Shown here piece by piece: positions 3,744 to 53,825 of a stretch of DNA of 56,444 nucleotides. The position numbers and the translations under genes are program-made. Positions within the stretch are counted from its first letter, which is position 1; each line of letters opens with the position of its first letter. This DNA is from a virus: positions 1 to 56,444 of IMG/VR virus record IMGVR_UViG_3300042319_001750. One strand, given 5' to 3'. The notes below the pieces were generated by a model. That model searched no databases. It was not told where the DNA came from and worked only from the letters and a program-made list of their open reading frames with translations.

Positions 3744-5330
3744 ATGGCTACCATCCCACAACTCGACCCGTCCAAAGCAACCCGCGAAGAAATGCGGACT
3801 TGGATTTCCGCCTCCGCCCGCACCATCGCCACTCACCAGAGCGGCTCGCCCACCATCACCTCGCTCCGTGAGGTGATGAAGTCCGTCGGCTTCGCCTCCC
3901 TCTCCGCCGTCATCGCGGAGGGCACCATGGAATCCCTCCGCACCTGCGTCACCAAGATGCACGATGTGGCCAAGGGGCACGGCCTGCTGGACTCGGAGCC
4001 CGCCGCTGCTTCCTGCCCGCCGCTCCCGCCGCTCCCGCCTCCGGCACCGCTTCCTGCCCCGCCGGAGCGCATTACCGTCATCCTCGACGAGGTTGACGGC
4101 CTTGACGAGGCTTCCCGCCTCGCTGACGTGGCTGCCGACTTCGCTCGTCGTGCTGCTGATGCCGCCGCTCGTGCCGCTGCTACTCCCCGCGCTGCAGGTA
4201 TGTCGGCCGCCGATCTCGAACGTCTCGACAAGGTGGAGTCGATGGCTTCCGCAACCCTTGACGCCCTGCGCGGCGAGGCTTCCAAGATCACCGACCTTCA
4301 GGAGAAGTTCGCCCCGCTGGCTGCCGTCCTTGATGCCCTCAAGTCCTCCTCGGGCGGACCACCCACCCTGCCACCCGCTGCCATCGCCTCCATCAAGGCT
4401 GCGACCTCGGGCGACAGGCTCCTGACGGAGGTGCTGCCGTTCTTCACGCCGGGCATCCAGCAGGGCAACCAGATTCCCTGCGTTGCCAGCCCGCCCAGCT
4501 TCGGAAAGACGTTCATGTCGGACGAAATCAGCCGTCTCTACGACGGCAGCTTTTTCCACCCGTTCAAGGACTCCCTCGACGAGGTTGACAGCCTCGTGGG
4601 CACCCTGATGCCCCGCTCGGATGGCACCTTCGCCGTCATCGACGGCCCGCTGGTGAGCGCCGCCCGCCTTGCCAGCACCGGCGTCAACACCCTCTTCGTG
4701 GGAGATGAAATCTTCAACGCCAGTAAGAAGACGCTGGAGTGGATGCAGTCCTTCCTCTCGCCGCGTCTCGTGGAGTTCGTCAACCCTGACGACGGCACCA
4801 CCGGTCTCCGGCGCTGCTTCGTCATTCAGACCAAGCACAGCTTGGAGGACGGCACGTTCGAGGTCATCAAGGCACCAGAGGAGTGCTTGCACTTCCTGTT
4901 CCTCGGCAACCTGCGCACCAATCCCCCAGAGGCATTGATGTCACGTTGCCGCCTCATGCGCTTCGACTACGACCCAGTGTGGGCTACTGAGACGGCGCTC
5001 CAACGCCTTGAGGGCTACTCCGGCGGTTTGTTCTCCGGCAAGGACGCTCAGGATTGGGCGAAGCGTTGGGCTACGGCGATGACGGCTACTCGCGAGGCTT
5101 ACTCCAAGATGGAGGTCAGCCGCCCGCTGTGCTTCCGCTTCCTCATCGGGGCTGTCACCCACGTTGTCCGCCAGCCGGGTGCCTCGCTCAGCATGCTCTC
5201 CGAGTATGTGGCCAAGTGGGCTCCCCATCAGATCGCCGTGCAGAATGCGGCGACCCAAGACACGGACGCTACCTCCTCCGCCCTCGTCAAGAAGATCGTC
5301 GGCTCCTGCTTCCCCGGCTCCGTCAAGTAG
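3744..5330 (+). CDS. MoxR/CobS-like AAA+ ATPase
   Basis: 528 aa. The N-terminal half (residues 1-215) is Ala/Pro-rich with a predicted coiled coil (ADVAADFARRAADAAARAAA). The C-terminal half is a AAA+ module: Walker A PPSFGKT with Lys255, Walker B LFVGDE with Asp321-Glu322, sensor-1-like FLFLGNL and an arginine-finger-like SRCRLMRF. MoxR/CobS-type ATPases work as hexamers with VWA-domain partners to remodel or metallate target proteins. That partner is supplied by the next two genes, which together resemble a CobT split in two. The leader contains CCCAAACGATAACAAC just before ATG. The target in this phage is unknown. The AAA+ assignment is firm; the CobS-like subtype rests on gene context. 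Confidence 0.85.
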   Translation: MATIPQLDPSKATREEMRTWISASARTIATHQSGSPTITSLREVMKSVGFASLSAVIAEGTMESLRTCVTKMHDVAKGHGLLDSEPAAASCPPLPPLPPPAPLPAPPERITVILDEVDGLDEASRLADVAADFARRAADAAARAAATPRAAGMSAADLERLDKVESMASATLDALRGEASKITDLQEKFAPLAAVLDALKSSSGGPPTLPPAAIASIKAATSGDRLLTEVLPFFTPGIQQGNQIPCVASPPSFGKTFMSDEISRLYDGSFFHPFKDSLDEVDSLVGTLMPRSDGTFAVIDGPLVSAARLASTGVNTLFVGDEIFNASKKTLEWMQSFLSPRLVEFVNPDDGTTGLRRCFVIQTKHSLEDGTFEVIKAPEECLHFLFLGNLRTNPPEALMSRCRLMRFDYDPVWATETALQRLEGYSGGLFSGKDAQDWAKRWATAMTATREAYSKMEVSRPLCFRFLIGAVTHVVRQPGASLSMLSEYVAKWAPHQIAVQNAATQDTDATSSALVKKIVGSCFPGSVK

Positions 5331-5340
5331 TCCCCTTCGG

Positions 5341-5373
5341 GGAGGGCTTGGAACTTCAGGTTCTAAGCCCTCC
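5341..5373 (+). repeat. 21-bp dispersed palindrome, copy 8, extended arms
   Basis: The palindrome (5347-5367, with one C to T change in the left arm) is lengthened by GGAGGG/CCCTCC into about 15 paired bases per arm. CCCCTTCGGGG lies immediately upstream, so its G-run can pair either back with CCCC or forward with CCCTCC. Confidence 0.88.
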
Positions 5374-5403
5374 TCCCCTCAACCCCTTAATCCCTGCAAC
5401 ACT

Positions 5404-6510
5404 ATGACACCGACACCAACACCACCCACACAGATCACCACCCCTGAGTCCGACCGTGCTTTCCGCTTCTCACGGCGGCGTGAAACCCGCAAGCCTGACG
5501 GCACTGTCCGTCAACGTGCTGGCTGCCTCAATCACCTCGCTGTCAAGACGGCCAGTCCCGTTACCTACCTGCTGACCTCCAAGTGCGGCGCACCTACCGC
5601 CTCGTGGCAGTGGAAAGCTGTGGGTGCAGGCTCACGCCACATCATTGAGGTGAACCCCAACTGCGCGACCGTGTTCTTCGCCGAGGCTAAGAACAACTCC
5701 AAGCGGCGCATCGAACTCGTCAAAGCGGTCATCGCTCACGAGTCCTGTCACGGACTCTACACCTCCCGCTCTCCCGACATCCCTCGCGCTTGCCACATCG
5801 TCAAGGTTCCGTTCCGATTGCTCAACCTCTTCGAGGACTGCCGCATCGAACACAAGTATGTGAAGGAGCGCGGGAAGGAGTTCAAGTTCCGCTGGCGTCT
5901 GTTCGACGACAACATGGTCAAGGCTGGCGCAGAAGTCAGCTCCCCGATGACGTGGCTCTACACCATGAAGACTCGTGAGCCTGCCTTGTTCAAGACGCTG
6001 CCCTCCGTCATGGCGGGATTTAAGTGGACAGGCACGGACAGTATGGCGCTACCCTCCGTGGCATACGTCCACCCGCTCAAGCCGATAGAGGGGCGGCTGA
6101 CCTACATCCCTTCCCTCATCAACGTCTTTTACAGAGCGATCATCGACGCCGCCACCACTGAGGATTTGATCCCCCTCGCCCGCTACTGGACGGACATCTT
6201 TGGTAAGGAGTCCGCCTCTGACCTCCCGCCCATCATCGTTGACACGGTGTCGTCAGATATTGGAGGTGTCCCCGAACCTGCTGGAGTTGATTCGGGGGAG
6301 TCGTCCGACGCTGATCGAACGACCCGCGAGGTTGACCACCGAGCTCTCGAAGAACACGGCGGCGGCGACCCCACTGACAAGCGGGCGATGCTGACCCCCG
6401 ACAAGGTGATGCACCACAACACTGACAAGTTCGTGAAGCAGCTTCCACGCGCTGGCTTCATCCCCCTCCTCCGCTACTGCGTTGGATTTGACAGCGACAC
6501 TTCCGTCTAA
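5404..6510 (+). CDS. CobT-like HExxH protein lacking its VWA domain
   Basis: 368 aa. The open frame extends back to 5164 inside the ATPase gene; I take the ATG at 5404, after the palindrome and a C/A leader. Residues 108-117 read VIAHESCHGL with His112, Glu113 and His116, a zincin-like metal site. RLLNLFEDCRIE follows about 30 residues later, like the LxNxLEDxRIE motif of phage and bacterial CobT N-terminal regions. The acidic segment around SDIGGVPEPAGVDSGESSDAD matches the linker that normally joins this part to a VWA domain. Here a TAA and 21 nt intervene before the VWA gene in the same frame. Its likely role is substrate adaptor or metal-site partner of the ATPase. Protease activity is not shown. 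Confidence 0.75.
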   Translation: MTPTPTPPTQITTPESDRAFRFSRRRETRKPDGTVRQRAGCLNHLAVKTASPVTYLLTSKCGAPTASWQWKAVGAGSRHIIEVNPNCATVFFAEAKNNSKRRIELVKAVIAHESCHGLYTSRSPDIPRACHIVKVPFRLLNLFEDCRIEHKYVKERGKEFKFRWRLFDDNMVKAGAEVSSPMTWLYTMKTREPALFKTLPSVMAGFKWTGTDSMALPSVAYVHPLKPIEGRLTYIPSLINVFYRAIIDAATTEDLIPLARYWTDIFGKESASDLPPIIVDTVSSDIGGVPEPAGVDSGESSDADRTTREVDHRALEEHGGGDPTDKRAMLTPDKVMHHNTDKFVKQLPRAGFIPLLRYCVGFDSDTSV

Positions 6511-6531
6511 CAACCCACCCACTACAACGAT

Positions 6532-13514: not shown

Positions 13515-13795
13515 ACGCACCAACACCCGAAACTAAATATGCTCTATCTGTAATATTAGAAGAACACGGCGAACTCTGCGAAGAAACCGCGCCCTTCATT
13601 TTAGTTAGACTTTGTAAAAAACTTGAACACGACATCACCGAACTCAACCTCCGCCTGATCGACCGCCAGCAGACGCTGATGGAACAAGCCGTCAAACTCC
13701 AAGCAGCATCCCGCCTCCTCACTCGTTGCCGCGATTCAGCGGGCCGAGTTGAGATGGGTTTGTATGAGGACATCCAAAACTTTTTGAATAGCTAA
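13511..13795 (+). CDS. Helical hypothetical protein
   Basis: 94 aa, coupled by ATGA to the coiled-coil gene. Nearly all helical (EHGELCEETAPFILVRLCKKLEHDITELNLRLIDRQQTLMEQAVKLQAASRLL). It could pair with its neighbour, but no family is recognised. Confidence 0.68.
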   Translation: MNAPTPETKYALSVILEEHGELCEETAPFILVRLCKKLEHDITELNLRLIDRQQTLMEQAVKLQAASRLLTRCRDSAGRVEMGLYEDIQNFLNS

Positions 13796-13797
13796 CT

Positions 13798-14025
13798 ATG
13801 ATCGACTCTCCAATATGTGTGACACACCACCTTGCCTGTGACTGTCGCGAGGCACTGATGGCGGAAGCTATGCAGACTCAACGCCGAGTGATCGACTGGC
13901 GGGATCAGAGCGATGAGGGGTTGAGGCTCCGTTGCGGAGAACTGACCTCGCAGGAAATCCGAACGATCCGCGCTGTGCTGACCGCAATTCTTCCGCCGAA
14001 CATTCAAACTGAGACACAGCCATGA
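13798..14025 (+). CDS. Small protein with HHxxCDC motif
   Basis: 75 aa. PICVTHHLACDCREALMAEAM is a Cys/His motif seen in many small phage ORFs. The rest is helical with TSQEIRTIRAVL. It probably binds zinc. Its 3' end contains the first attC-like terminal box, and its stop overlaps the next start by ATGA. Confidence 0.68.
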   Translation: MIDSPICVTHHLACDCREALMAEAMQTQRRVIDWRDQSDEGLRLRCGELTSQEIRTIRAVLTAILPPNIQTETQP

Positions 14026-14121
14026 GAAAATGCACCGCCCCATCCCCATTCTGTGAATGCCAAAAATGTTTTGATGCCAAGCAAGGTGCCGTGGCTGTTG
14101 TCTCCAGTGCCCTTGTTCGGC
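13995..14121. repeat. attC-like imperfect palindrome, unit 1
   Basis: GCCGAAC at 13995 and GTTCGGC at 14115 form complementary 7-bp end boxes. Inside them are a 5-nt unpaired spacer and then ACTG-AGAC-ACAGCC against ACTGGAGACAACAGCC (reverse complement of the right arm), leaving two single extrahelical bases. This end-box/spacer/inner-box/bulge layout is that of integron attC sites. The right box differs from the attC consensus GTTRRRY at one position. The start codon at 14022 is in the loop. Confidence 0.55.
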
Positions 14122-14267
14122 TTGCTCCGCCGCATGAGTGCCCTGCGTGTAAGCGCACAGGGTTCTACGAGAAACCGAAAAGGAACTGCTATTACTGCCC
14201 CCACTGCTGGAATCTGTTTGGAGAGATATATGGAGACCCGAAACAAAAGATCAGGCTCGCACAATGA
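14022..14267 (+). CDS. Zinc-ribbon hypothetical protein
   Basis: 81 aa with two Cys clusters: CECQKC near the N-terminus, and HECPACKRTGFYEKPKRNCYYCPHCWNLFG, a full C-x2-C...C-x2-C zinc ribbon. It starts in the loop of attC-like unit 1, immediately after its left arm, overlapping the previous gene by ATGA. Likely nucleic-acid binding. If unit 1 were a true cassette boundary, the gene would span it, which is unusual. Confidence 0.65.
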   Translation: MRKCTAPSPFCECQKCFDAKQGAVAVVSSALVRLAPPHECPACKRTGFYEKPKRNCYYCPHCWNLFGEIYGDPKQKIRLAQ

Positions 14268-14314
14268 AGCCGAGCCGTCCCTGCTCTGGCACAGAGCGGG
14301 GGAGAGAAAACTAA
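14264..14314 (+). CDS. Possible 16-aa micro-ORF
   Basis: ATG overlaps the previous stop (ATGA) and gives a 16-residue basic peptide ending at TAA 14314. It falls in the left arm of attC-like unit 2. Only the overlap supports it, so it may be chance. Confidence 0.25.
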   Translation: MKPSRPCSGTERGREN

Positions 14315-14399
14315 ACCGAAGGAATCAAATCTATGAATGAAGAAAACGTAAATGATGCCATAGCGCCCCGCTCTGTTGACCAGCAGCGCCTTGTTCGGA
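14269..14399. repeat. attC-like imperfect palindrome, unit 2
   Basis: The left arm GCCGAGC...CTGCTCTGGCACAGAGCGGGG faces a right arm whose reverse complement reads TCCGAAC...CTGCTGGTCAACAGAGCGGGG. Eleven consecutive inner bases (ACAGAGCGGGG) pair. The end boxes are less perfect than in units 1 and 3. The start codon at 14333 is in the loop. Confidence 0.5.
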
Positions 14400-14674
14400 C
14401 TCATTGGATTACCGCTCTAAGAGGATACGCCGAACCAGATCCTCCCTACCGATCCCGCTTTAACTTCGTGTGGTGGTTCTGGCTACCGAGACTCCACACG
14501 CAACGTCCCGACGCCATGAACCCGCGAGTAATCCGGCTCATCTGGCTATGCTTCGCTGTGGGGCTGGACATCTGGGGCAAGGAGTCGCGGATGTATTGGC
14601 CGAACAAGCCTGCTCTGGCAGCAAGCCCGGCTAAAAACTCAACCGAAGCGAAAGACTCACAAAATGGAAACTGA
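14333..14674 (+). CDS. Cassette-like hypothetical protein, Trp/Arg-rich
   Basis: 113 aa. It has a Trp-rich middle (FNFVWWFWLPRLHTQRP) and a hydrophobic stretch RLIWLCFAVGLDIWG. The C-terminal tail NKPALAASPAKNSTEAKDSQ is read from the left arm of attC-like unit 3. I chose the ATG at 14333, in the loop of unit 2; the in-frame ATG at 14516 is the alternative if translation starts after the palindrome. Unlike its neighbours it has no C/A leader. Not recognised. Confidence 0.5.
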   Translation: MNEENVNDAIAPRSVDQQRLVRTHWITALRGYAEPDPPYRSRFNFVWWFWLPRLHTQRPDAMNPRVIRLIWLCFAVGLDIWGKESRMYWPNKPALAASPAKNSTEAKDSQNGN

Positions 14675-14725
14675 GTCGATACTCCAAAACGCTGGCGCAG
14701 CTTGCCAGCAGCAGGCTTGTTCGGC
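14599..14725. repeat. attC-like imperfect palindrome, unit 3
   Basis: Best unit: GCCGAACAAGCCTGCT pairs with the right arm over 16 consecutive bases. After one extrahelical G, CTGGCA and AGC also pair. End boxes are GCCGAAC (14599) and GTTCGGC (14719), 127 bp overall, the same length as unit 1. The start codon at 14664 is in the loop. Confidence 0.6.
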
Positions 14726-14990
14726 CTTGCCGTGGCTGAAACGTCCATCTGACTTGGGTATGTGGTGGGCATTCTGGGAGGGCAAATACTCGCTTTGGCA
14801 GGTCATCAAAATCCCGGCTGGCTGGATGGCGATGAATGAAGAAATCGGGAACAGTATGGTGGGCTGGATCAACTCCGCCAATCTCGAAATCTGCGAGCTG
14901 CAAAACTCCATTTGGTTCCCGGCGCTCGGAGGTTGGCCGAACGATAAGGCTCAGCAAAATGAAATAAAAACTCGCTTGCACATTTTCTAG
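14664..14990 (+). CDS. Cassette-like hypothetical protein
   Basis: 108 aa from 14664, or about 76 aa from the ATG at 14759 just after attC-like unit 3. The part after 14759 (MWWAFWEGKYSLWQVIKIPAGW ... SANLEICELQNSIWFP) looks like the folded protein, and the earlier residues are palindrome-encoded. Another GCCGAAC box at 14936 lies near its 3' end without a partner. Not recognised. Confidence 0.55.
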   Translation: METESILQNAGAACQQQACSALPWLKRPSDLGMWWAFWEGKYSLWQVIKIPAGWMAMNEEIGNSMVGWINSANLEICELQNSIWFPALGGWPNDKAQQNEIKTRLHIF

Positions 14991-15017: not shown

Positions 15018-15093
15018 GGCAGGGTAGCTCAGAGGCCAGAGCGTCGGGCTCATAACCCGAAAGTCGGAAGTTCAAATCTTCCCCCTGCCACCA
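15018..15093 (+). tRNA. tRNA-Met (CAU), initiator-like anticodon arm
   Basis: Seventy-six bases with a 7-bp acceptor stem (GGCAGGG/CCCTGCC), D-arm AGCTC...GAGC, anticodon CAT at 15051-15053, T-arm GGAAG-TTCAAAT-CTTCC, and encoded CCA (15091-15093). The anticodon stem-loop TCGGGCTCATAACCCGA has the three G:C pairs that mark bacterial initiator tRNAs and equals my memory of the E. coli fMet arm. Positions 1:72 are paired G:C and position 11:24 is C:G, as in elongators. It is therefore a hybrid; tRNA-Ile2 (lysidine-modified CAU) is the other option. Confidence 0.9.
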
Positions 15094-15109: not shown

Positions 15110-15553
15110 ATGACCACAGCACACATCATCCATCAGGTTCATCCGCTCGATCTCGCGGCCGACATCGTTATAGCTGCCAACCGGCTTCTCTTTGAATCTC
15201 ACATCCCTCACTGGTTCCGTGCCCACACCACCGACACGCATATCCATCTCACCCTGCAACCCGACAACCCACCCACCCCCATGACCGTAATCGAAGTGCC
15301 CATTGACGACATCGTCCTCGACAAAGAACTCCGCCGCGACATTGACTCACAGATTCAGCGTCTTAAATCCTCCGCTCCAAGCCGCGAACGCAGCCTCGCT
15401 ATCACGAAGCTACAAGAGGCGGTGATGTGGCTCGGTATGGACCTCAAGCGCATCAATGAGGAGACCCCCGGCTCCTCACCGAATCCCTATCCAAACTCCA
15501 AGGACCCGAGCAACTTGAAGATCGAGCCCACTGCGGACGGACTCAAACTATAA
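15110..15553 (+). CDS. Acb2/Tad1-hairpin-like cyclic-nucleotide sponge (candidate)
   Basis: 147 aa. Residues 75-116 (RRDIDSQIQRLKSSAPSRERSLAITKLQEAVMWLGMDLKRI) match the helical-hairpin signature SRE-x-SLA-x-TKL-x-EA-x-x-W of the widespread phage Acb2/Tad1-type domain. Characterised members form oligomers that bind cyclic di- or tri-nucleotides or gcADPR and so block CBASS or Thoeris immunity. An in-frame ATG at 15281 (residue 58) follows a typical leader (CCGACAACCCACCCACCCCC) and would give 90 aa, close to the usual Acb2 size, so two products are possible. The N-terminal 57 residues are unrecognised. It lies just after the tRNA in the early region. Domain recognition is by eye; the nucleotide-binding role is inferred. 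Confidence 0.7.
   Translation: MTTAHIIHQVHPLDLAADIVIAANRLLFESHIPHWFRAHTTDTHIHLTLQPDNPPTPMTVIEVPIDDIVLDKELRRDIDSQIQRLKSSAPSRERSLAITKLQEAVMWLGMDLKRINEETPGSSPNPYPNSKDPSNLKIEPTADGLKL

Positions 15554-19423: not shown

Positions 19424-19427
<4 letters not shown>
18840..19427 (-). CDS. Cys-rich zinc-binding protein coupled to the giant gene
   Basis: 195 aa from the ATG at 19427, which overlaps the stop of the giant gene (ATGA); the longer frame to 19511 lies inside that gene. It contains CATCPRNVRAGGCSSC and CSQCGCRLNLK, probably two zinc knuckles, followed by an acidic C-terminus. The N-terminal 40 residues (NGKWRWRDPVTGSYITNFSAQKLIGAVRGFL) are conserved-looking. It is last in the late operon. 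Function unknown. Confidence 0.75.
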
Positions 19428-33037
<13,610 letters not shown>

Positions 33038-51147: not shown

Positions 51148-52917
51148 TCAGAAGAACCTACGGGCGCGACCAGCTACATCAAGGCGCTTGAGTGCCTTCT
51201 TCAGCGAGGAGACCTGCTTGCCAGAAGCCGGGCGAGTGGCAGGACGTTCTACGGAGGAAAACCCCATGCGGGAACGACAGAGGTCTATGAGAATGAAAGC
51301 AGCATCAGCCAAGTCGGGGCTGAACCCGACACGGTCCTTCATGTCAATCTTGCGCTCAGCCCGGAGTAGTAGCTTACCCCCACCCTTGACGGTGTCGTAC
51401 TTGCGCGAGACCATTTCGCGGATCGTGGAAGCGTCAAGCCCGCTGAGTTGTTTAGCTCGGAGCAGCTCCTTGCCCGCGAACCACAGCTCAGAGACACGGT
51501 CATGGTATCTCTCATAGGAGGGGGACTTGTCAGATGAGGAGACAGGCACGTCTGAAGCACGCCCGCTGAAGTTGACCCGGAGGAATTCAGGCCCCCACAA
51601 CACAGCAAGCACGTCAGCAAAAGGAGCTCCACCAGCCGTGGCGTCGAGTGCGAAATTGCGAAGGGTCACCCCACGCTTGATGCACTCGTCTCGGACTTGT
51701 CGGCAGATTTGGTGAGTGCGGGGGTCTATTTTGTTGGTGACATCTTCCGAAATGAGGAGGACCTCATCAAAGTTGAGGTGCCTCGCACCACCAAACGTCT
51801 TACCGACTGTCCCAAAACGCAGGACACATCGGTCTCCGCCAGCGGTGAAAGCTACGTCAAGGGCGGCAACCCGGCTTTTAGGGCTGTCGTGAGACCACAC
51901 TGGCGAAGAAGTCCCCCCACCACGCTCAATTTCGATGTCAGAATAGATGCTGTCCTCCGCTCCGATCGGGCACCAGAATCCTTTCACCATTCGGTAGTAG
52001 GCGACGGACTTCTCACCTAGCTTGGCGGCTTCATCGAGGTCGTCCTGCTTCGCGAGAAACGGGTATTTAATGAACCCGAGAGTGATGTTGGGGCTGCGCT
52101 CCGCATCGAACCGAATGAACTGGCCGTGCTTGGTGCGCCACGAGTAGTCCATTTCAGTGACCGACGACCATCCGTCGAATGGCTCTGAGAAGCGGCCGTG
52201 GGGGTCGTAGTGCGAGTTGGGGTTCCCGATGCCAACCATCTTGAAGTCCTCGTTGCGGGCGAGGTTGGAGAAAGCAGTCGTCAAGATGCTGTCTGCGAGC
52301 TCAGGCAACTCGTCGGCTACCAGTCGAAGACGCGGTGCCTTGAAACCCATGAACTTGTTTTGCGCATCACGTTCCTTCTTGCGGTCAGATGCGACGAGGG
52401 TCAGTCCAAACTTGTCAGACTGGATACCATCAGCCTCAAACCGGATCACACCTTGCGAGGAGACCAGTTTACCGGGCAGCCCGGGGATCGCTTGGAAATA
52501 ATCCTCAACCGTGGACCAGATACGCTTGCGGCTATCCTTGAGGCTGGTGGAGGTATAGAGAACCTGCGTCGCGTGTGGGGCGCATAGCCACTCAATGAGC
52601 CCCCATACCGCAAAGAAGTCAGTCTTACCTGAGCTCGCGCAACCTCCGACTGACAGATATTTGTTGGTGCAAATGGCTTCGAGCATCTCCTCCGCCCACG
52701 GGTGCCAGACGAAGTGCTTGCTGGAGGATGGTTGGTTCCAGAGAAGGTCTACCGCCCTGCGAAAGTGATGAGGCTTGCCGGGAGAATCGGGAGCTCCTTC
52801 ACGATAGCAGAGAAGCTCGATGTCGAGGTCGCTGACTTCAGGGCCCCAGATCAATCCATAGACCTCCCGCTCGGAAGGAATTGAAGTTCGTGAATGTTTT
52901 TTCTTGACTGAGGCCAT
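51148..52917 (-). CDS. terL: Terminase large subunit
   Basis: 589 aa. ATPase part: Walker A GGCASSGKTD with Lys98, Walker B LRLVADE with Asp202-Glu203, and coupling segment around VGIGNPNS. Nuclease part: Asp354 (AALDVAF), Asp425 (FALDATAGG) and Asp534/Asp537 (FSPDLADAA) give the RNase-H-like metal site. All key residues are present. It cuts and pumps DNA through the portal. It opens the late minus-strand operon; leader AAAAAACAACAACT-ATG. Confidence 0.93.
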   Translation of the reverse strand: MASVKKKHSRTSIPSEREVYGLIWGPEVSDLDIELLCYREGAPDSPGKPHHFRRAVDLLWNQPSSSKHFVWHPWAEEMLEAICTNKYLSVGGCASSGKTDFFAVWGLIEWLCAPHATQVLYTSTSLKDSRKRIWSTVEDYFQAIPGLPGKLVSSQGVIRFEADGIQSDKFGLTLVASDRKKERDAQNKFMGFKAPRLRLVADELPELADSILTTAFSNLARNEDFKMVGIGNPNSHYDPHGRFSEPFDGWSSVTEMDYSWRTKHGQFIRFDAERSPNITLGFIKYPFLAKQDDLDEAAKLGEKSVAYYRMVKGFWCPIGAEDSIYSDIEIERGGGTSSPVWSHDSPKSRVAALDVAFTAGGDRCVLRFGTVGKTFGGARHLNFDEVLLISEDVTNKIDPRTHQICRQVRDECIKRGVTLRNFALDATAGGAPFADVLAVLWGPEFLRVNFSGRASDVPVSSSDKSPSYERYHDRVSELWFAGKELLRAKQLSGLDASTIREMVSRKYDTVKGGGKLLLRAERKIDMKDRVGFSPDLADAAFILIDLCRSRMGFSSVERPATRPASGKQVSSLKKALKRLDVAGRARRFF

Positions 52918-52952
52918 AGTTGTTGTTTTTTACGACTCTGCCACATTACTGC
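52918..52952. promoter_or_regulatory. Divergent start region TerL / integrase
   Basis: Only 35 bp separate the starts of the late minus-strand operon and the plus-strand integrase, so promoters must overlap the coding regions or lie further away. It holds the A-rich/CAACAAC leader of TerL. Confidence 0.4.
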
Positions 52953-53825
52953 ATGACCAAAACCAAGTCAACCAAACCAAAAACCGCCACCTCGACAGTT
53001 CAGGCATATCTGAAAAGTCATAGATTTGAGGGGCTCTCCATCCACCACATCCGCACGGTGCGCAAGCACATGGGCATTTTCGTGAAATACTTCAAGGAAG
53101 CGCCGCTGGAAGAAGTCACTCCAGAGGAAGTGCTCTGCTCCATGCCCAAAAACTGGGGGCAGACCTCGAAGGCCAACTACATTCGAGCGGTTAAGACTCT
53201 CGCTAATTGGGCGCGGGATAATGACTACCTACCTTACGACCGCCGCACATTTGCCGAGCGTATCAGGAAGCCGAAGGAGGTTCCATTGGAGCCAGAGTTC
53301 TTCACGACTGAAGAAATGCGCCGACTACTGACTGTGGCGGGTATGTTGGTTGGGGGAGAAGAAGAGTTTCTGTTGTCCCTGATTATCCTTGGGGGTTTCG
53401 CTGGACTACGCTCCAGCGAGATCGGACGTTTGCGGTGGGTAGACATCGACCTCCCTCACAAAGCCGTGAGGTTGACGCCGAAGATCACAAAGACATCGTC
53501 TCGTCGTATTGCACTGCTCCCTGACAACGGGGCTGCGTGGCTGGAACACATCAAGGATAAGTCGGGGTTCGTTGTTCCCCAACACCTTATCCCAAATTTG
53601 AACCGCTACATCGGCACACTCGCCAAAGAAGCTGGTGTGGAGTGGAAGAACAATGCCCTCCGCCATTCATACGTCACCTATGCCATGGCACAGGAGCGCG
53701 ATGCGTGGAAAGTAGCCGAGCAAGTGGGCAACTCACCCCGTGTTTTGCAAGCCCATTACAAAGGGCTTGTGCTCCTCCCAGACGCAGTTGAGTGGTTTGG
53801 TATCACCCCTGACAACACCCTATGA
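52953..53825 (+). CDS. int: Tyrosine recombinase / phage integrase
   Basis: 290 aa from the ATG at 52953 (a TTG frame begins at 52920). Core-binding domain residues ~12-95, catalytic domain ~110-285. Catalytic residues: Arg153 (AGLRSSEIGRL), Lys180, Arg237-His238 (ALRHS) and Tyr269 (AHYKG). The usual His before LRH is Asn234, and the His/Trp of the GHS box is Asn260 (VGNSPR), a variant I associate with PVC-group integrases. It should integrate the phage genome. Lysogeny also needs a repressor, not identified here. Overlaps the resolvase gene by ATGA. Confidence 0.88.
   Translation: MTKTKSTKPKTATSTVQAYLKSHRFEGLSIHHIRTVRKHMGIFVKYFKEAPLEEVTPEEVLCSMPKNWGQTSKANYIRAVKTLANWARDNDYLPYDRRTFAERIRKPKEVPLEPEFFTTEEMRRLLTVAGMLVGGEEEFLLSLIILGGFAGLRSSEIGRLRWVDIDLPHKAVRLTPKITKTSSRRIALLPDNGAAWLEHIKDKSGFVVPQHLIPNLNRYIGTLAKEAGVEWKNNALRHSYVTYAMAQERDAWKVAEQVGNSPRVLQAHYKGLVLLPDAVEWFGITPDNTL

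Follow-up and report, generated by a model that had tools for sequence, protein, structure and literature searches.

Three large palindromes close a rightward gene cluster in the window, our term for the entire 56,444-base virus record analysed here, which encodes a terminase large subunit at 51148-52917. The question they raise is whether they are recombination sites (attC) of an integron-type array carried by a phage, or a new family of palindromes that control translation. A preliminary description of the locus left both possibilities standing. The coordinates that it gave, the lengths (127, 131 and 127 bp) and the spacings between right boxes (278 and 326 bp) are all correct, as are the end boxes, GCCGAAC/GTTCGGC in units 1 and 3 and GCCGAGC/GTTCGGA in unit 2. 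We refer to the units as U1, U2 and U3 (Table 1).

Strand and identity of the sites

The three palindromes are real and exceed chance. A finder that scores boxes together with bulged arms returns them as the top three of the window (scores of 31, 28.5 and 25), and when 60 dinucleotide shuffles were searched with the same finder, 28.5 was never reached, 25 was reached in five of the 60, and none contained three sites scoring at least 25. The stability of the DNA folds differs between the units and is weakest for U2 (Table 1).

Table 1. Predicted features of the array. Fold z, z-score of the DNA fold of the plus strand.
Feature	Position	Strand	Basis or remarks
attC site U1	13995-14121	-	Model R2 59.3 bits, E 7.4e-14; fold z -4.5
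U1 parts	R'' GCCGAAC 14121-14115; VTS about 14092-14022; R' GTTCGGC 14001-13995	-	
attC site U2	14269-14399	-	Model R2 29.0 bits, E 9.7e-6; fold z -1.4 (weakest)
U2 boxes	R' GCTCGGC (degenerate) 14275-14269; R'' TCCGAAC 14399-14393		
attC site U3	14599-14725	-	Model R2 27.5 bits, E 2.5e-5; fold z -7.2; inverted repeat I1
Fourth R'-type box	14936-14942	-	GTTCGGC on the minus strand; pattern match, end of g3 body
Cassette gene g1, 81 aa, Cys-rich	14022-14267	+	Relatives L367-L369; best coding frame +
Cassette gene g2, 113 aa	14333-14674	+	Relatives in viral contigs; purifying selection
Cassette gene g3, 108 aa	14664-14990	+	Open frame
g2 cassette as recombination unit (g2 body and U2)	14275-14605	-	U3 R' to U2 R'
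g1 cassette interval (U1 interior, g1 body, U2 left box)	14002-14275	-	Absent exactly from L014

The extra-helical bases of attC sites stand on the R''-L'' arm, and they do so in the bacterial arrays that we examined. Single extra-helical bases had been recognised in the palindromes from the outset, but their position on the right arm, and with it the minus-strand reading, had been missed. In the L'' arm of U1, ACT[G]GAGAC[A]ACAGCC, the two bracketed bases are about 5 nt apart and match the bacterial arm GCT[G]CAGCG[A]AC; the right box is therefore R'' and the left box R', as expected of sites on the minus strand. U2 and U3 are less regular. Unpaired features, the extra-helical bases included, are known to steer recombination to the bottom strand of attC, approximately a thousand-fold above the top strand (PMC8946536). 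When the right-arm pattern of related viral arrays was used to search genomes, it led mainly to Verrucomicrobiota, which have the same GCT[G]CAGCG[A]AC arm. Of 129 viral sites, 128-129 retain the pairs of the R''/R' boxes. The matches listed for a loose GCCGAACA..TGTTCGGC pattern in viral contigs could not be separated from chance and were excluded from the evidence.

It had been anticipated that an attC covariance model would recognise the palindromes, and here the outcome is divided. A model built from 41 attC sites of the bacterial arrays with this arm (R1; covariation 0.488, against 0.141 in shuffles) gave 44 matches at E <=1, all on the minus strand and 33 with E below 0.01, when run against 261 kb of related viral contigs, but it did not match U1, U2 or U3, even with filters off. 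A second model (R2; covariation 0.474, against 0.121 in shuffles) drew on 137 viral sites that R1 had brought in, none of them from the window or from its nearest related phage (L014). In the 56-kb window R2 matched exactly U1, U2 and U3, all on the minus strand, and the next match had an E-value of 1.2. We note that the E-values of R2 depend on the chain by which it was obtained, since it was built in two steps. As judged from sequence, U1-U3 are integron attC sites on the minus strand; that they recombine is inferred, there being no assay data.

The sites are not equally well preserved. The invariant AAC...GTT boxes are present in U1 and U3 and not in U2, in which the GTT core is missing from R' and whose function is probably impaired. 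The outer 17 bp of U3 pair perfectly, and the unpaired central spacer present in U1 and U2 is absent. Given the loss of the core from U2 and of the spacer from U3, the array in the window may be decaying and losing activity, and these two copies may be inactive.

Direction of the cassette genes

Each loop contains the unpaired start codon of a small gene (ATGs at 14022, 14333 and 14664), that of U1 lying at the loop edge. From its start in U1, g1 extends to a stop immediately before U2. The g2 frame leaves the U2 loop through R'', continues across a body ending at the R' box of U3 and stops in the U3 loop, in which g3 starts, such that the end of g2 and the start of g3 overlap. The fourth R'-type box has no recognisable partner; the g3 frame there reads W-P-N, as g2 does at 14599-14605, and we infer that it is a probable remnant of the array end. 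Directly 3' of the array is a tRNA-Met gene (15018-15093, +), the only match from Rfam, and directly after it an Acb2/Tad1 hairpin domain protein (15110-15553, +; PF24729, 33.3 bits, cut-off 27) that may inhibit nucleotide-signalling defence. Elsewhere in the window, 19424-33037 on the minus strand forms one open frame of 4537 aa.

The plus-strand direction of these genes, against minus-strand sites, is best supported for g2, which is under purifying selection in that strand (median dN/dS 0.14; 367, 267 and 970 differences at the three codon positions). We determined orientation more widely by a codon score for each cassette body, using 103 bodies from 32 viral contigs and 136 bodies from 47 bacterial contigs with the attC type seen in the viral arrays. 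Viral bodies were reversed in 69 instances, canonical in 13 and ambiguous in 21, versus 7 reversed, 99 canonical (towards R'') and 30 ambiguous among the bacterial bodies (Fisher p 1.5e-29). Counted by contig, 24 viral contigs are mainly reversed and three canonical, versus two and 39 for bacteria (Fisher p 5.5e-13). Orientation by longest ORF was dropped in favour of these scores, as mirror frames confound it and leave viral arrays ambiguous.

Most related viral contigs in the comparison have the flipped layout, although outside g2 the coding strand rests mostly on codon statistics. In contigs G004 and G006 the reversed strand carries independent matches to the domains DUF1643 (E 2e-46) and R2K ATP-grasp (E 7e-12), and terminase-like matches are present in seven mainly reversed contigs (G001, G006, G008, G010, G011, G014 and G015). 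The mainly canonical contigs of the viral set are L315, L321 and L276; L315 has no terminase match and L321 a weak one, so that a bacterial origin is possible. A clear coding body adjoins 37 viral sites; 23 of these have an in-frame ATG in the VTS loop, while the other 14 have GTG or TTG in the loop (two), a start in the arm (four), a blocking stop (two) or none of these (six). Viral cassette genes usually end at or past the next R' box. The R'' box is not read in one fixed phase (phases 0, 1 and 2 in 15, 9 and 13 sites; p 0.47). The preliminary description was right that a start codon in the loop sets these units apart from standard cassettes, and we now see it as a sign that the genes are systematically reversed relative to attC.

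Cassette exchange and integrases

Relatives of g2 were found at 13 viral loci. In each of the pairs L003/L004, L006/L007 and L011/L012 the two loci nearly duplicate each other, L013 is only a fragment, and L014 has the leader alone; counting the window, about nine contexts are independent, and they share no flank. No relatives of g2 were found in bacterial and archaeal genomes or in annotated phages, and none of g3 in viral contigs. Across contigs, DNA homology of g2 covers the body and the adjoining attC arm and stops at 14605-14610, a few bases from the R' box of U3. When the window is compared with L002 and L003, the attC upstream of the g2 body proves to have been inherited together with it (z 8.5-10.9), unlike the DNA downstream (z -0.5 to 1.2).

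The nearest related phage, L014, has the upstream gene in common with the window and joins window positions 13620-14001 to 14276-14397. Because 14001 is joined directly to 14276, the g1 cassette is either there in full or missing altogether. Its absence from L014, together with co-inheritance of the g2 body and U2, bears out the cassette-level variation between relatives that an integron-type array had been expected to show. One attC plus one gene is thus gained or lost together at R'; that an integron integrase recombines the sites at G^TT of R' is inferred only indirectly, from these evolutionary junctions. Breakpoints also occur at the R'' box: L014 shares the U2 interior (97.6% identical) and L369 the U1 interior, with different bodies beyond the right box, and these are not predicted by standard crossover at R'. 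These shared interiors lie at L014 7944-8066 and L369 5983-6110, each with the N-terminus that it encodes, and are joined there to other gene bodies.

No integron integrase was found in the window, whose tyrosine recombinase gave the best TIGR02249 score, 25 bits against a cut-off of 265. This tyrosine recombinase, encoded at 52920-53825 (+) next to the terminase gene, is weakly XerA/XerD-like (47 bits) and is not an integron integrase. With three attC sites within 731 bp and no intI in the record, the array is a CALIN and not a complete integron. Integron integrases do stand beside related viral arrays, in G004 (290 bits), G009 (231) and G002 (187), the latter two scoring below the cut-off, and in the alignment all three have kept the residues R, H, R, H and Y. 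The three integrase genes lie rightward of their arrays and read along the plus strand. Bacterial integrons arrange intI relative to attC in just this way, from which it follows that the cassette genes have been turned round and not the array. In the integrase tree, support was too weak for a position to be assigned to the enzymes of G004 and G009, and only that of G002 grouped, with an Opitutaceae integrase (98/95). Five of seven Verrucomicrobiota genomes with the arm pattern have an integron integrase above the family cut-off.

Interpretation and known systems

We consider it very likely that the locus is a CALIN of minus-strand attC sites within a rightward gene cluster of a tailed phage, with plus-strand cassette genes that start in their own VTS; of this reading, attC identity by model, gain and loss at R', the coding strand of g2, the start codons in the loops and the flipped layout of most viral arrays are the demonstrated parts. 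The earlier suggestion of an integron-type array carried by a phage is in this way supported by covariance models, cassette-level variation and the integrases of related contigs. A cassette would consist of one attC and the gene body to its right, with the gene on the plus strand, against the usual direction, and with the left box, R', as the predicted crossover point and the right box as R''. The gene would start within the VTS loop of the attC to which it belongs, pass through L'' and R'' and across the body, and end at or beyond the next R'; each cassette would supply its own start region, and whichever cassette follows would complete the last codons. We infer that recombination takes place at R' on the plus (coding) strand in its folded form, through an integron integrase supplied by the host or by another phage infecting the same cell, that expression comes from an upstream phage promoter and not from an attI promoter, and that the hosts are Verrucomicrobiota.

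That the sites are instead decayed relics, acquired a single time from an integron of Verrucomicrobiota, then put to use as neutral junctions between genes and now recombined by no integrase, is unlikely but cannot be dismissed. The missing GTT core of U2, the missing spacer of U3 and the lack of an integrase in the window all fit such a history, but it does not account for compensatory change that keeps the arms across viral sites, for differences in gene content from the nearest relative at exact boxes, or for the integrase residues retained in three related contigs. If modules were exchanged without an integrase, through short conserved boxes that serve homologous or illegitimate recombination, this would be ordinary mosaicism of the kind from which phage genomes are built, and would allow breakpoints at both R' and R'', as in L014 and L369. 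We think this improbable: homologous recombination would have only a 7-bp box to work with, which is short, and mosaicism gives no reason for two conserved extra-helical bases, for covariation of the arms, for the use of one strand per array, or for the integrases.

Two further explanations concern how the genes are read. Hairpins that display a start codon in the apical loop could tune the translation of small genes, their likeness to attC being secondary; strong RNA folds of the plus strand (z -5.2 for U1 and -7.5 for U3), the start codons in loops, the overlap of the g2 stop with the g3 start, and the reported hindrance of ribosomes by attC hairpins (reviewed in PMC8876359) are consistent with this. 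As an account of the sites we judge it quite improbable, since it leaves unexplained the model match to the minus strand only, the invariant AAC/GTT core, gain and loss, and the integrases beside related arrays. The new family of translation-control palindromes proposed earlier is thus not needed for the sites, although an effect on translation is not excluded. It is hardly credible that the orientation is standard and that open frames on the other strand merely mimic reversed genes. GC-rich DNA does give long mirror frames, and counts of longest ORFs are ambiguous in viral arrays, but purifying selection on g2 is confined to the plus strand, the DUF1643 and R2K ATP-grasp matches fall on the reversed strand, and the identical codon score returns the canonical orientation for bacterial arrays.

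Returning to an attC array with reversed genes, we lean towards, without being able to press, a broader proposition: that there is a widespread lineage of phage integrons, probably with Verrucomicrobiota hosts, in which genes are reversed, the cassette pool is separate from that of bacteria, expression is from the phage operon, and attC is both recombination joint and 5' leader with the start codon. If attC has this double role, recombination could swap gene ends. The flipped viral arrays point to a separate phage cassette pool, and phages would thereby gain a site-specific route for acquiring and losing small accessory genes.

Arrays of attC without integrase are already published for virulent phages, in which IntI1 recombines five of six tested attC sites (Qi et al. 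2023, PMC9892861), and the window array is like these CALINs in being a cluster of attC without integrase. In contrast to them, arrays related to that of the window reach about 14 sites and their attC type is mostly that of Verrucomicrobiota; among the published phage arrays checked, the M16-3 array and the single TJE1 attC that was detected have the canonical direction, whereas genes of the window are reversed and start inside attC. Phage CALINs are thus known, but we found no published description of the reversed, attC-started layout in the open literature; most subscription papers were outside the search, and absence is not proof. The integron of phage Rctr41k (L328, KX853513) similarly combines an integron-integrase-like gene with an attC-like array in a tailed phage, but with canonical gene direction and no R2 match. 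Its region at 4680-10101 comprises the integrase-like gene, labelled only as such in the record, then approximately six attC-like sites with co-directional canonical genes.

Chromosomal integrons of Verrucomicrobiota and Planctomycetota (for example L359, L363 and L184), in which an integron integrase is present, agree with the viral arrays in attC consensus (GCCTAAC..GCT[G]CAGCG[A]AC) and attC/intI geometry. Bacterial cassette genes run from R' to R'' outside attC, whereas the viral genes run the opposite way and overlap it; the unit of one attC plus a gene agrees with a standard integron cassette, and the direction and position of the gene do not. The strand preference of attC has been explained in reviews as aiming inserted cassette genes at the attI promoter (PMC8946536), an assumption made testable by many viral arrays with consistently opposite genes. 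A recombination site with a translated frame across the crossover point has a counterpart in ORF-11 of attI1 (reviewed in PMC8876359). ORF-11, however, is a short leader peptide in attI, whereas in the window the cassette genes themselves start in attC, and the recombination sites are themselves protein-coding.
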